Assembly: GCA_020349945.1 (NCBI GenBank)
Contig: CP070704.1
Location: 1,583,751-1,622,066, forward strand
Length of the DNA stretch: 38,316 nt
DNA from: Deltaproteobacteria bacterium
Lineage (GTDB): Bacteria; Desulfobacterota; DSM-4660; Desulfatiglandales; B25-G16
Direction of reading: 5' to 3'
The position numbers were made by a program, and so were the translations under genes. The notes beneath the pieces were generated by a model. The model did no database searches and was not told the origin of the DNA. It saw only the letters and a list, made by a program, of their open reading frames with translations. Positions 6,726-11,554 of the stretch are shown piece after piece. Within the stretch, counting starts at the first letter, position 1, and each line of letters opens with the position of its first letter.

Positions 6726-8807
6726 ATGATAAAAACAACTGATCAGATTAGAAATATAGGTTTGATAGGTCATAGTGGTTGCGGGAAAACATCACTGGCA
6801 GAGGCCATTCTTTATAATAGCAAGGCGATAAAACGGTTGGGAAGAGTAGATGATGGTTCCTCCAGCATGGATTTCGAGCCAGAAGAGATTAAAAGAAAGG
6901 TAACTCTTGGTACAGCCTTCCATCCTTTTAACTGGAAAAGTGCGAGTTTCAATCTTATAGATACGCCAGGTGAAAATGATTTCCTTTCTGATACTAAGGT
7001 ATGTCTTCAGGCAGCCGAAGGGACTGTTGTTACTATCGATGCCGTTGACAGTATCAAAGTAGGCACAGAAAAGGTCTGGGCCTTTTCCGAGGAGTATAAT
7101 CTGCCGCGGCTGATATTTGTTAACAAACTCGACAGGGAACGGTCTGATTTTTATAAGGTTATAGATGAGATTGAAAGGACGTTTTCTATAAAAACAACAC
7201 CTATATATCTCCCAGTCGGCACAGAAGGTGACTTGACAGGCGTCGTAAATCTAATCAGGTTAAGGGCCCTTATGTATAAAAATGATGGTACCGGCTCCTT
7301 TAAAGAGGAGGATATCCCAGATTCAATGGCGGAGATAGTGGATACATGGCGTGAAAAAATATTGGAAAATATTGTCGAGGCCAATGATGATATTATGGAG
7401 AAATATCTTGATGGAAAGGAACTCACTGCAAAGGAGATAGAGCAGACCTTTATAGAGGGTGTTAAATCTGGCATTGTGGTGCCTGTTGTCCCCGGATCTG
7501 CCACCCTTAATATAGGTGTTGGCCAACTTTTGGACATTATTGCTCAATCAATTCCTTTTCCAGCTGAAAGAGGAACGGTAAAAGGGCATAAACTGGACAG
7601 TGAAGAGCTGGTGGAATTTGACGCTGTTGATGAGGCCCCATTTTCAGCTCTTGTCTTCAAGACCTTAGCAGACCCATTTGCAGGGAAACTCAATCTTTTC
7701 AAGGTTGTGTCCGGTAAGATAGATTCAGAATCTACGGTATTTAATTCAACAAAAAAGGTGAAAGAAAGGCTAGGCCAGTTATTGTTGATTGAGGGTAGAA
7801 AACAAACACCAATTGATATGGCTAGTGCCGGCACTATAGCAGCTGTAGCGAAGCTAAAGGAGACCACGACCGGCGATACCTTTTGCAAGGAGGATAATCC
7901 AATCGTGTTTCATCCGGCAGAACCATTGTCACCAACCATTTCCTTCGCTATTGAGGCCAGAGAAAAAGAGAATGAGGACAAGGTCTACTCTTCTCTGGCC
8001 AGATTGGTAGAGGAAGACCCTACCCTTAGGGTAGACAGAGATCAATCAACTTCAGAAATTATCCTGTCTGGCACAGGCCAGATTCACCTTGAGAATACCA
8101 GGGATAGATTAAAGAGAAAATTCGGGGTCGAAATTAACCTCAAAACTCCTAAGGTTCCTTATAGGGAGACGATCAGAAATGCAAGAGAAAGGATAATCTA
8201 TAGACATAAAAAACAGAGTGGTGGACGGGGCCAGTTTGCTGAGGTACATTTTGACATCTTCCCCCTCAAAAGAGACGAGGGGTTTGTGTTTGAAGAGGCA
8301 TTAGTTGGCATGAACGTGCCGAGAAATTTCGTTCCAGCGGTTGAGAAGGGTATAGTAGAGGCTATGAGGAGTGGAGTTTTGGCAGGATATCCGGTTGTAG
8401 ATATTAAGATTCGGTTTTTTGACGGAAAATCTCATGAGGTTGATTCCTCTGAAATGGCCTTTAAGATAGCAGCTTCCATGTGCTTTAAAAAGGCCGTTCA
8501 AGAGGCGACACCTATTCTTTTAGAACCGATTATGAACATGGAAATAACCGTTCCCGAAGAGGTTATGGGAGATGTCATAGGTGATCTTAATGGCAGGAGG
8601 GGAAGGGTTTTAGGCATGGACAGGGAAGGCAAAAATCAGATTATAAGGGCTGAAGTACCCTTGGCTGAGGTTCTGAGATATTCCTTTGATCTGACATCCA
8701 TGACAGGTGGCAGGGGAAGTTTCCAAATGAAACAGTCCCATTATGAAGAGATTCCAGCTCAACTGGCAGAGAAGATCGTATCCGGCTCTAAGGAAGAGGG
8801 AAAGTAG
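6726..8807 (+). CDS. fusA: Elongation factor G-like GTPase (EF-G-2 type)
   Basis: This is a full-length 693-residue translational GTPase with EF-G domain order: G domain, domains II-III, a ribosomal S5-like domain IV and a C-terminal domain V. G motifs visible are GHSGCGKT (G1, about 15-22), DTPG (G3, near 79) and NKLD (G4, near 132). The switch I stretch (FEPEEIKRKVTL) lacks the canonical RGITI of housekeeping EF-G, which points to the EF-G-2/FusA2 group whose role in translation is less defined. KKQSGGRGQFAEV and GRRGRVLGM match domains IV and V. It is not beside rpsL, rpsG or tuf, which also suggests a paralogue. The downstream mog gene begins 13 nt after the stop, so the two probably share a transcript. 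Confidence 0.9.
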   Translation: MIKTTDQIRNIGLIGHSGCGKTSLAEAILYNSKAIKRLGRVDDGSSSMDFEPEEIKRKVTLGTAFHPFNWKSASFNLIDTPGENDFLSDTKVCLQAAEGTVVTIDAVDSIKVGTEKVWAFSEEYNLPRLIFVNKLDRERSDFYKVIDEIERTFSIKTTPIYLPVGTEGDLTGVVNLIRLRALMYKNDGTGSFKEEDIPDSMAEIVDTWREKILENIVEANDDIMEKYLDGKELTAKEIEQTFIEGVKSGIVVPVVPGSATLNIGVGQLLDIIAQSIPFPAERGTVKGHKLDSEELVEFDAVDEAPFSALVFKTLADPFAGKLNLFKVVSGKIDSESTVFNSTKKVKERLGQLLLIEGRKQTPIDMASAGTIAAVAKLKETTTGDTFCKEDNPIVFHPAEPLSPTISFAIEAREKENEDKVYSSLARLVEEDPTLRVDRDQSTSEIILSGTGQIHLENTRDRLKRKFGVEINLKTPKVPYRETIRNARERIIYRHKKQSGGRGQFAEVHFDIFPLKRDEGFVFEEALVGMNVPRNFVPAVEKGIVEAMRSGVLAGYPVVDIKIRFFDGKSHEVDSSEMAFKIAASMCFKKAVQEATPILLEPIMNMEITVPEEVMGDVIGDLNGRRGRVLGMDREGKNQIIRAEVPLAEVLRYSFDLTSMTGGRGSFQMKQSHYEEIPAQLAEKIVSGSKEEGK

Positions 8808-8820
8808 AGATGGTTTACAG

Positions 8821-9312
8821 ATGATAAAGGCGGGAGTATTAACTATTAGCGATAAAGGGTTTAGGGGGCAGAGAAGGGACAAATCTGGTCCCCTCGTTGC
8901 TGAAATGTTGACCAAGGCTAGTTACCGGGTTGAGAAACAGGGTATTGTCCCTGATGATCATGAAAAGATTGTAGAGTGTTTACTAGAGTGGATCGATAAA
9001 GATGGTCTCAGGCTGGTTGTGACAACAGGGGGTACTGGGGTGAGTCCAAGTGATGTAACCCCTGAGGCTATGCTCAAGATAATTACATATCAGATACCTG
9101 GTATGGCTGAGGCTATGAGGGCCTCGAGTCTAACCAAGACCCCTCATGCCATGCTTTCCCGAGCGATGGCTGGCGTCAGGGGAAACAGCCTGATTATCAA
9201 TGTACCGGGAAGCCCTGATGCTGCACAGGAAAACTTGACCGTTATTTTACCTGCTCTAAACCATGCGCTGGCCAAAATTGCCGGTGACACGGACGATTGT
9301 GCTCAAGAATAG
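8821..9312 (+). CDS. mog: Molybdenum cofactor protein MogA/MoaB (molybdopterin adenylyltransferase family)
   Basis: The family binds molybdopterin and, in MogA, adenylates it before metal insertion. The 163-residue protein begins IKAGVLTISD and contains the TTGGTGVSPSDVTPEA motif (MPT binding), followed by a GxPGSPxAA-like NVPGSPDAA segment. The frame is open upstream into the EF-G-like gene, but ATG 8821 is the only sensible start because the preceding residues belong to another reading of fusA. MogA and MoaB are hard to separate by sequence alone; the length suits either. A second cofactor gene, moaC, lies 2.3 kb away on the other strand. Confidence 0.88.
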   Translation: MIKAGVLTISDKGFRGQRRDKSGPLVAEMLTKASYRVEKQGIVPDDHEKIVECLLEWIDKDGLRLVVTTGGTGVSPSDVTPEAMLKIITYQIPGMAEAMRASSLTKTPHAMLSRAMAGVRGNSLIINVPGSPDAAQENLTVILPALNHALAKIAGDTDDCAQE

Positions 9313-9358: not shown

Positions 9359-9461
9359 TTAGGAGCTGCTTTTAAAGCTGGGTGTAACGAGAATCTCTAC
9401 ATCTGCAGTAAAGGTCTTACTCGTTATGGTTATAATACAAAATCGGTTTTCTTTTAAAAAA
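9359..9461 (-). other. Out-of-frame continuation of the 9454-9834 lipoprotein gene
   Basis: The annotated frame stops at a TAA formed by the run TTTTTTTAAAAG (minus strand; seven T at 9455-9461 when read in reverse). Adding one T keeps the frame open for 32 more codons and gives FLKENRFCIITITSK followed by FTADVEILVTPSF, ending at a TAA at 9359-9361. This tail looks like the expected C-terminus of this lipoprotein type (a beta-strand with a Cys, then an E-V-E-I-x-V strand), so it was probably coding. The cause could be a one-base loss, a homopolymer read error, or slippage expression at the T7/A4 run. Confidence 0.6.
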
Positions 9462-9834
9462 ACATTATATTCCTTGGCGATTTGAAGGAACTCAGAAAAC
9501 GCCAGCCATCCTCAGGCATCTTGTCGGTAAAATAGTTGACGATAAAATCTGCTTCCATCTTTCCAGAGAAGGTAAGAAATCCGAAGGAATACTCAGTTGT
9601 TTGAAAGACAAAGGATTTTTTCCTTTTTATCTCCAGTCCCCTTGGAACTGCCACATCCTTAAAATCATAATAAAGAGATATTTCTGTTTCGCCAACCTCT
9701 TCAGATAGTTGGGGTTCTTCGCGGGGGACTGCTTTCGTGAATAAGGTTTCTGTGGCACATCCAGTTATAGATAGAGAAATAAGCACAGTGAAGAAGATTT
9801 GCATCAACATTCGACTCGATTTTACTTTACTCAT
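9454..9834 (-). CDS. Small predicted lipoprotein, C-terminally shortened by a frame break
   Basis: The 126-residue product has a lipoprotein signal peptide (MLMQIFFTVLISLSITGC, lipobox Cys near residue 26). The mature part reads ISLYYDFKDVAVPRGLEIKRK..SFVFQT...GFLTFSGKMEADFIVNYFTDKMPEDGWRFLSSF. I recall short uncharacterised deltaproteobacterial lipoproteins of this layout, but cannot name a Pfam family safely. It would act at the periplasmic face of a membrane. The annotated frame ends at PRNIMFF, just where the run of seven T begins; see the separate entry for the lost tail, which would bring it to about 158 residues. It is convergent with mog and divergent from the nhaD gene. No function assigned. 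Confidence 0.65.
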   Translation of the reverse strand: MSKVKSSRMLMQIFFTVLISLSITGCATETLFTKAVPREEPQLSEEVGETEISLYYDFKDVAVPRGLEIKRKKSFVFQTTEYSFGFLTFSGKMEADFIVNYFTDKMPEDGWRFLSSFKSPRNIMFF

Positions 9835-9952
9835 CCCAATACTGCGCCCTCCCTTGTTCTTTTATGTTACATAATAGCTAAAGAGAAATCTATTAGATTT
9901 TTCACCTATCGGCTTTTCACCTCTGAATAAAGATCTGAGGGGTAATTTCTTC

Positions 9953-10111: not shown

Positions 10112-11554
10112 ATGAGGCAGAGGAGTGTAATTCTGTTTTTGCTTGCTTTTTTTGCTCTTTCCTCTCTGGTATTTGCAGCAGAGGATTCTCATCAAGGGAC
10201 TCATGAGCACGTCAATTTAGGCGAGATTCTCTCTCTGTATAGCACCATACCATTTATTGGGATATTGCTTTCAATTGCCTTATTACCTCTTTTTACCCCG
10301 GAATTCTGGCACCATCACTTTGGAAAGGTCTCGGCCTTTTGGGCCACTGCTATAGCTATACCGCTTATCGTTGCCCATAAAGGAGTAGCCCTTCACAGTT
10401 TTCTTGATATTTTGATAGCAGACTATATCCCTTTTATTATACTCCTCTGGGGTCTTTTTACCATCTCCGGAGGTATTTTGCTGAGGGGTAGCTTGAGGGG
10501 AACGCCTATAGTAAATACCATTATGATTATCATAGGAACCATTTTGGCATCCTGGATGGGAACAACAGGAGCTGCCATGTTACTTATAAGGCCATTTTTA
10601 AGGGCTAATAGTTATCGAAAGAATAGGGCGTTCATGGTGGTTTTTTTCATATTTCTGGTAGCAAACATTGGCGGAGCACTAACACCAGTAGGCGATCCCC
10701 CACTTTTCTTGGGATTCTTGCATGGTGTTCCCTTTTTCTGGACATTTCACATCTTGCCCCATATGTTAGTAGCTGCCTTGATCTTGCTGGCTATCTATTT
10801 TGTTGTTGATACCTATTATTACAGGAGGGAAGTGCATAGCAACGAGATGGATGAAGGAGATAAAAAGCCACTCAGCTTAGTTGGTGGCTACAATTTTATA
10901 TTTTTAGCGGGGGTCATTGGCTCTGTTATATGGAGCGGATTGGTAAACTGGGGGGAGGTAAATACGTTTGGTGTAGTCAGAAGCATTCAAGAATGGGCGA
11001 GGGACGGCTTTATTATCCTCATGGGCATCCTTTCGCTGGTATTTACCGCTTCTCAGATACGGGAAGATAATGAATTTACCTGGTTTCCCATTAAAGAGGT
11101 GGCCTATCTATTTGCAGGCATCTTTATAACAATGACCCCATGTCTTCTTCTCCTTCTTGCGGGGAGCAAAGGGGCACTTGGTTTTATTATTGGTACGGTA
11201 AAAGAGCCGTTTCACTATTTCTGGGTTACGGGGGTCCTTTCAAGTTTCCTGGATAATGCCCCTACCTATTTGACCTTTTTCACAAGTGCGTTGGGGAACT
11301 TTTACCCAAGCACACCTGAGCCAATAGCTGTCTCAAGGTTGATCTCTGAAAATCCTACCTACCTGATGGCTGTTTCTGCTGGAGCGGTTTTCTTTGGGGC
11401 TAATACCTACATTGGAAATGCACCCAATTTTATGGTTAGGTCCATTGCTGAAGAGGCGGGGACACCTATGCCGAGCTTCTTTGGGTATATGTTAAAGTAC
11501 TCGATTGTTTTTCTTGTTCCTGTTTTTATTATCGTGACTATTATATTCTTCTAA
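10112..11554 (+). CDS. nhaD: NhaD-type Na+/H+ antiporter (ion transporter superfamily)
   Basis: This inner-membrane protein probably exchanges Na+ (or Li+) for H+. The 480 residues start with a cleavable-looking hydrophobic segment ending in VFAAEDSHQGTHEHV, a His-rich stretch, then about 11-12 membrane helices. Conserved segments include ASWMGTTGAAMLLIRPFLRAN and NIGGALTPVGDPPLFLGFLHGVPFFWTF, the helix-break Thr/Gly-Pro motifs of the family, and a second half repeat SSFLDNAPTYLTFF and GANTYIGNAPNFMVRSIAEEAG. These place it in the ArsB/NhaD part of the ion transporter superfamily, nearer NhaD than arsenite or citrate carriers. It is a single-gene unit with its own strong promoter and a structured leader, and it is convergent with moaC. 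Confidence 0.85.
   Translation: MRQRSVILFLLAFFALSSLVFAAEDSHQGTHEHVNLGEILSLYSTIPFIGILLSIALLPLFTPEFWHHHFGKVSAFWATAIAIPLIVAHKGVALHSFLDILIADYIPFIILLWGLFTISGGILLRGSLRGTPIVNTIMIIIGTILASWMGTTGAAMLLIRPFLRANSYRKNRAFMVVFFIFLVANIGGALTPVGDPPLFLGFLHGVPFFWTFHILPHMLVAALILLAIYFVVDTYYYRREVHSNEMDEGDKKPLSLVGGYNFIFLAGVIGSVIWSGLVNWGEVNTFGVVRSIQEWARDGFIILMGILSLVFTASQIREDNEFTWFPIKEVAYLFAGIFITMTPCLLLLLAGSKGALGFIIGTVKEPFHYFWVTGVLSSFLDNAPTYLTFFTSALGNFYPSTPEPIAVSRLISENPTYLMAVSAGAVFFGANTYIGNAPNFMVRSIAEEAGTPMPSFFGYMLKYSIVFLVPVFIIVTIIFF

Follow-up and report, generated by a model that had tools for sequence, protein, structure and literature searches.

Does the short lipoprotein gene on the minus strand of the window, by which the whole stretch of 38,316 nucleotides analysed is meant, encode a complete protein, or has a longer reading frame been interrupted at a homopolymer? 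The 126-codon ORF terminates in ...SPRNIMFF-TAA, with the stop arising inside TTTTTTTAAAAG, and the minus-strand context of the break reads ...ATG TTTTTTT AAAAG..., where the final T of the T7 run and the two A that follow it make up the TAA. In the adjacent frame LKENRFCIITITSKTFTADVEILVTPSFKSSS is read up to a TAA at 9361-9359, giving 32 codons, and the leucine preceding KENRFCIITITSKTFTADVEILVTPSFKSSS uses bases of the T run; an example of the peptide coded by the tail is TFTADVEILVTPSFK. The span 9359-9834 contains 476 bases, one less than 159 codons. This arrangement, a frame stopping at the TAA inside the T7/A4 run with 32 codons open in the adjacent frame, had been described in an earlier note, and the coordinates and translation agree with it, the "annotated frame" of that note being simply a mechanical ORF. 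The gene is single-copy in the window's genome, which belongs to an uncultured bacterium of the sulfate-reducer type (G000; one contig, 2,531,530 bases), and where a second intact copy was sought and none was found. The sequence directly 5' of the T run, AAGGAATATAATG (minus strand, 9463-9477), consists of a Shine-Dalgarno-like sequence and an ATG, from which the only reading is MFF-stop, and at the position of its AGG (Arg) codon the relatives have a lysine, coded by AAG or AAA. The coordinates of the features are collected in Table 1.

Table 1. Features of the lipoprotein locus and its neighbours, in positions of the window.
Feature	Position	Strand	Remarks
Truncated lipoprotein ORF, 126 aa	9454..9834	-	Signal peptide with lipobox LSITGC (Cys26), end ...PRNIMFF TAA
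T7 run, site of frame loss	9456..9462	-	A7 on + strand
A4 completing the TAA stop (9456-9454 on -)	9452..9455	-	T4 on + strand
Out-of-frame tail: 31 codons KENRFCIITITSKTFTADVEILVTPSFKSSS (9454-9362) and TAA 9361-9359	9359..9454	-	Family C-terminus
GGGAGGG, likely ribosome-binding site, 12 nt 5' of ATG	9847..9853	-	Sequence
MogA/MoaB-type molybdopterin-binding protein, convergent neighbour, synteny anchor	8815..9312	+	Pfam PF00994; same order in relatives
CitMHS_2/NhaD-type transporter, divergent neighbour, synteny anchor	10112..11554	+	Pfam PF16980; same order in relatives

Searches of the genus and the family recovered 11 orthologues in other genomes, and all 11 of these same-family genes carry the tail in a single unbroken frame. 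The full ORF, which was read directly in 10 of them, is unbroken over 157-161 aa and its tail follows the pattern FF[L/Q/M]KE[N/S/K]RFC[I/V]ITI...EI, and in the eleventh (L012) the alignment continues through the tail, also in a single frame; the two same-genus sisters exhibit 76-77% identity across the full length. Two tail residues, Cys133 and Glu147, do not vary among 16 members, including distant order members, at identities down to 24%. A profile search of 297 phylum genomes detected the family in 116. As a rule the match extends in a single frame to profile positions 149-157; a smaller number of weaker, local matches end at 137-144, and none at 126. A split match was observed only in the window's genome, where one part covers 1-134 (with the TAA within) and the tail forms a separate match to positions 109-157 of the 158-position profile (E 1.3e-14). 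The lipobox LSITGC, whose Cys26 is invariant among the aligned relatives, is present in the window gene, as are the YYDFKDV..P, SFVF, G.LTFSG and DGWRFLSS motifs, and the C-terminal KE.RFCIITI...EI.V strands are found in the window's DNA one frame off, indicating an interrupted family member. Because the tail aligns to the C-termini of the 11 orthologues and gives a profile match of its own, the likeness is more than chance, and sequence comparison establishes the out-of-frame tail as the true C-terminus of the lipoprotein family. The earlier note had proposed as much, and the Cys and the E-I-x-V strand to which it pointed are conserved in the relatives. It had also reasoned that relatives all ending at PRNIMFF would speak against a lost C-terminus; no such relative was encountered among those examined, the tail being in frame, and the comparison of the reconstruction with relatives that it recommended gave an aligned tail in all 11 orthologues, with run lengths that differ in the related genomes and are in frame in all of them. 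The pattern YYDF.D...P, SFVF, DGW and C-terminal CII.I...EI.V was observed in L023-L027 and in the phylum matches, and some genomes harbor two family copies, which in G125 and G160 lie side by side on one contig.

The genes of the relatives are regarded as orthologues because the gene neighbourhood is conserved, the order being EF-G, Mog protein and convergent lipoprotein, with the CitMHS_2/NhaD transporter also present in most loci. Differences in the neighbouring genes were observed in the sister G003 (CP070660.1). The window (6726-8807) has an intact EF-G-like gene beside the Mog gene, but in G003 this gene is split, and the pieces for residues 1-432 and 511-693 (68218-69513 and 618180-618728) are located approximately 550 kb apart, which suggests a rearrangement or misassembly in G003. 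The CitMHS_2/NhaD gene is mostly missing in G003 (window 10291-11446 against G003 620084-620462) at a place that is otherwise collinear, and the gap looks like an internal deletion.

The intact sister protein was predicted by AlphaFold with a mean pLDDT of 77, rising to about 90-96 over residues 61-150, and the predicted elements comprise strands at 83-91, 112-118, 122-128, 131-139 and 144-152 and a helix at 95-105. The truncation takes away the last two predicted strands and the end of a third, and for this reason the 126-residue product is, on the model, unlikely to fold properly. Neither the short nor the read-through protein had a match in Pfam or NCBIfam, the same scans of 16 relatives gave nothing significant, and a PDB sequence search gave nothing significant either. 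With the intact sister protein as query, the top matches in Foldseek were 3lyd, LpqN, MTC28, PsbP, EagT6 and DcrB, with E values from 3.5e-3 upward, TM-scores of about 0.3-0.45 and no match below E 1e-3. We take these matches to belong together as a Mog1/PsbP/DcrB-like alpha/beta sandwich, several of them being lipoproteins, and such a fold for the family is put forward as a lead only. The gene most likely encodes a small lipid-anchored envelope protein.

The tail displays dN/dS values of 0.088/0.360 and 0.057/0.544 against two sister genomes, and the upstream mature region (codons 50-126) displays 0.089/0.367 and 0.077/0.441 against the same sisters, so that the ratio in the tail is about 0.1-0.25, similar to that upstream, and decay is absent. 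These comparisons show the tail to have been under purifying selection like the upstream part until very recently, or still to be so. That the 126-residue form is the proper product, with a tail whose likeness is coincidental or vestigial, is given next to no probability: the mechanical ORF is all that favours it, and it is ruled out by the in-frame relatives, the invariant Cys133 and Glu147 of the tail and the phylum profile matches, while strands 131-139 and 144-152 belong to the predicted sheet and not one relative ends at PRNIMFF.

At the site of the break the sisters carry TTTTTTTTG or TTCTTTTTG and most other relatives carry TTTTTTCAG, all of them in frame. The sister G003 reads ATG TTT TTT TTG AAA, its T8 exceeding the T7 of the window by one base, the sister G005 reads ATG TTC TTT TTG AAG, and the remaining relatives show TTT TTT or TTC TTT followed by CAG (ATG in one). 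Just two genomes, the window's and that of G003, have at least seven T in a row at the site, and G003 stays in frame through its run. A T7 followed by at least four A is rare (2 places in 1.235 Mb of the window's genome), T7 itself is not, and 744 kb of aligned ORFs contain 139 coding A/T runs of 7 bases and 24 of 8 bases, some of which entered the count on both strands; many such runs in the window's genome are harmless.

Expression of the gene in both a short and a long form, which the earlier note had also considered, finds little room in these data. Programmed or tolerated slippage, with a minority long form made alongside the 126-residue short form, could proceed through addition of a base on T7 by RNA polymerase or through a -1 ribosomal slip with tRNA-Phe at UUU before UAA, and a -1 slip on U UUU UAA would yield exactly the conserved tail. 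An AAGGA lies just 5' of the run, in a position as for internal SD stimulators, and occurs within 16 nt of only 5 of the 289 T7 runs in the part of the genome that was sampled, and a bacterial precedent exists in tssM at an A11 tract (PMC4256274). However, the T7A4 run and the AAGGA are missing in the relatives, which need no shift and make the long form only, from one frame; AAGGA is found in 2.5% of random 16-nt stretches; the zero frame at the run is G UUU UUU UAA, without an X XXY YYZ heptamer; a search for hairpins 3' of the run detected no strong stimulatory structure (z = -1.3), the nearest one starting about 30 nt away and not at the spacing of 5-9 nt that such signals have; and an Rfam search at the site gave no match. 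The slippage survey of Baranov et al. found that a large share of bacterial genomes show selection against A/T runs when these reach nine nucleotides (PMC1088944), a length of which T7 falls short. A programmed short/long pair is therefore unlikely, and slippage of this kind as a whole is considered distinctly improbable. The related case of a real run of seven T with low-level slippage at T7AAAAG, so that an abundant short form would be accompanied by some full-length lipoprotein, perhaps with the newly arisen upstream AAGGA as a helper, is thought very improbable indeed.

As the tail is undecayed and the break falls on a long homopolymer, we infer either an undercall in the assembly or a very recent deletion, in line with the earlier note, for which a one-base error or a recent loss was among the explanations; with the relatives whole, it is the best one. 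In either event a conserved single-copy gene of 158 codons would lack one base of the T run near codon 126, and the recorded frame would then stop at 126 residues with the bases for the last 32 residues intact behind it, the cause being a homopolymer-length undercall, somewhat more likely, or a very recent slippage deletion. A one-base undercall in the assembly of a conserved lipoprotein gene is held to be rather probable, and the cell would then make an ordinary full-length envelope lipoprotein. That replication slippage really deleted one base very recently is a substantial possibility of lower probability, and such a loss would leave a fresh pseudogene or a strain variant whose 126-residue lipoprotein, without its two final strands and a portion of another, is probably non-functional.

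The two were compared through a frameshift survey of 1.235 Mb of the window's genome, sampled as stretches, against 1.6 Mb of G003, in which 898 ORF queries from the sister genome were matched and nine candidate frame changes were obtained. Only that of the lipoprotein gene lies at a homopolymer, the others being apparent antisense ORFs, gene starts or poorly conserved stretches, and since no other homopolymer frameshift was seen the consensus is generally clean. Such a near-absence of other frameshifts (1 in about 900 ORFs) is expected from an accurate consensus and favours the recent deletion, as does the fact that homopolymers are mutation hotspots, and so recent a mutation would show no decay. 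Against the deletion, the gene is whole in every relative where it was found, and the scarcity of long homopolymers in the genome suggests that runs were shortened in the assembly. The T7/T8/T9+ runs number 651/131/4 in the window's assembly and 2031/553/52 pooled over five same-genus genomes, whose proportions predict approximately 651/177/17; the shortage of runs of at least eight versus seven T is significant (Fisher p = 5e-4), and both the T8/T7 and the T9+/T8 ratios are the lowest of 18 family genomes. T runs of at least nine bases number 4 in the 2.53 Mb of G000, where about 17 are expected from the same-genus genomes, and 0 in the sampled 1.235 Mb, which would reflect either a shortening of long runs by the assembly or their avoidance in the lineage. 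In long-read assemblies, miscounted homopolymers make up most of the errors that remain (PMC8442456). As a counterpoint to an error, the shortage of long runs could have a biological origin, and about 20 coding 8-base A/T runs in conserved ORFs of the window's assembly are intact, indicating that undercalling of such runs is not frequent. The signature of one base lost at a long run with the rest intact is slightly more in keeping with the undercall than with a very recent deletion. Two further comparisons were made. A scan of codon usage for changes of frame at runs of at least 5 bases, whose thresholds missed the lipoprotein gene, flagged 24 sites in the window's genome, most of them resembling ordinary gene junctions. 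A reciprocal comparison of ORF lengths with G003 was uninformative, being dominated by spurious antisense ORFs and by genes of G003 that seem to be broken midway.

A truncated lipoprotein called at this locus should thus be read as a full-length conserved protein with a one-base frameshift, and neither as a short variant nor as a site of recoding. As a side benefit, a lipoprotein family without a Pfam or NCBIfam entry is now clearly defined in 116 of the 297 sampled phylum genomes.

Among known systems, the Mog1/PsbP/DcrB/LpqN-like fold (LpqN 6e5d, DcrB 6e8a, PsbP 2vu4) presents a weak structural likeness to the intact sister protein. The rescue of the interrupted Citrobacter rodentium tssM1 by transcriptional slippage (PMC4256274) resembles the locus in having the C-terminal part in the other frame just past a homopolymer, but tssM1 has A11 where the window gene has T7, and the window's run is not conserved and the relatives are uninterrupted. 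The homopolymer errors of long-read assemblies (PMC8442456) share with it a one-base loss at a long run, an intact remainder, a single contig and few long T runs, whereas the conserved ORFs with 8-base runs in the window's assembly are otherwise intact. Also close are the orthologues of the Deltaproteobacteria/Desulfobacterales lipoprotein family in CP070660.1 (bin79) and DAOVGH010000083.1, which are 74% identical to the window gene over its 126 aa and have in common with it the lipobox, the YYDFKDVPVP and EDGWRFLSS motifs, the C-terminus and the neighbourhood; in the relatives one frame continues to the full family length, whereas the window gene stops at 126 aa with a T run one base shorter.
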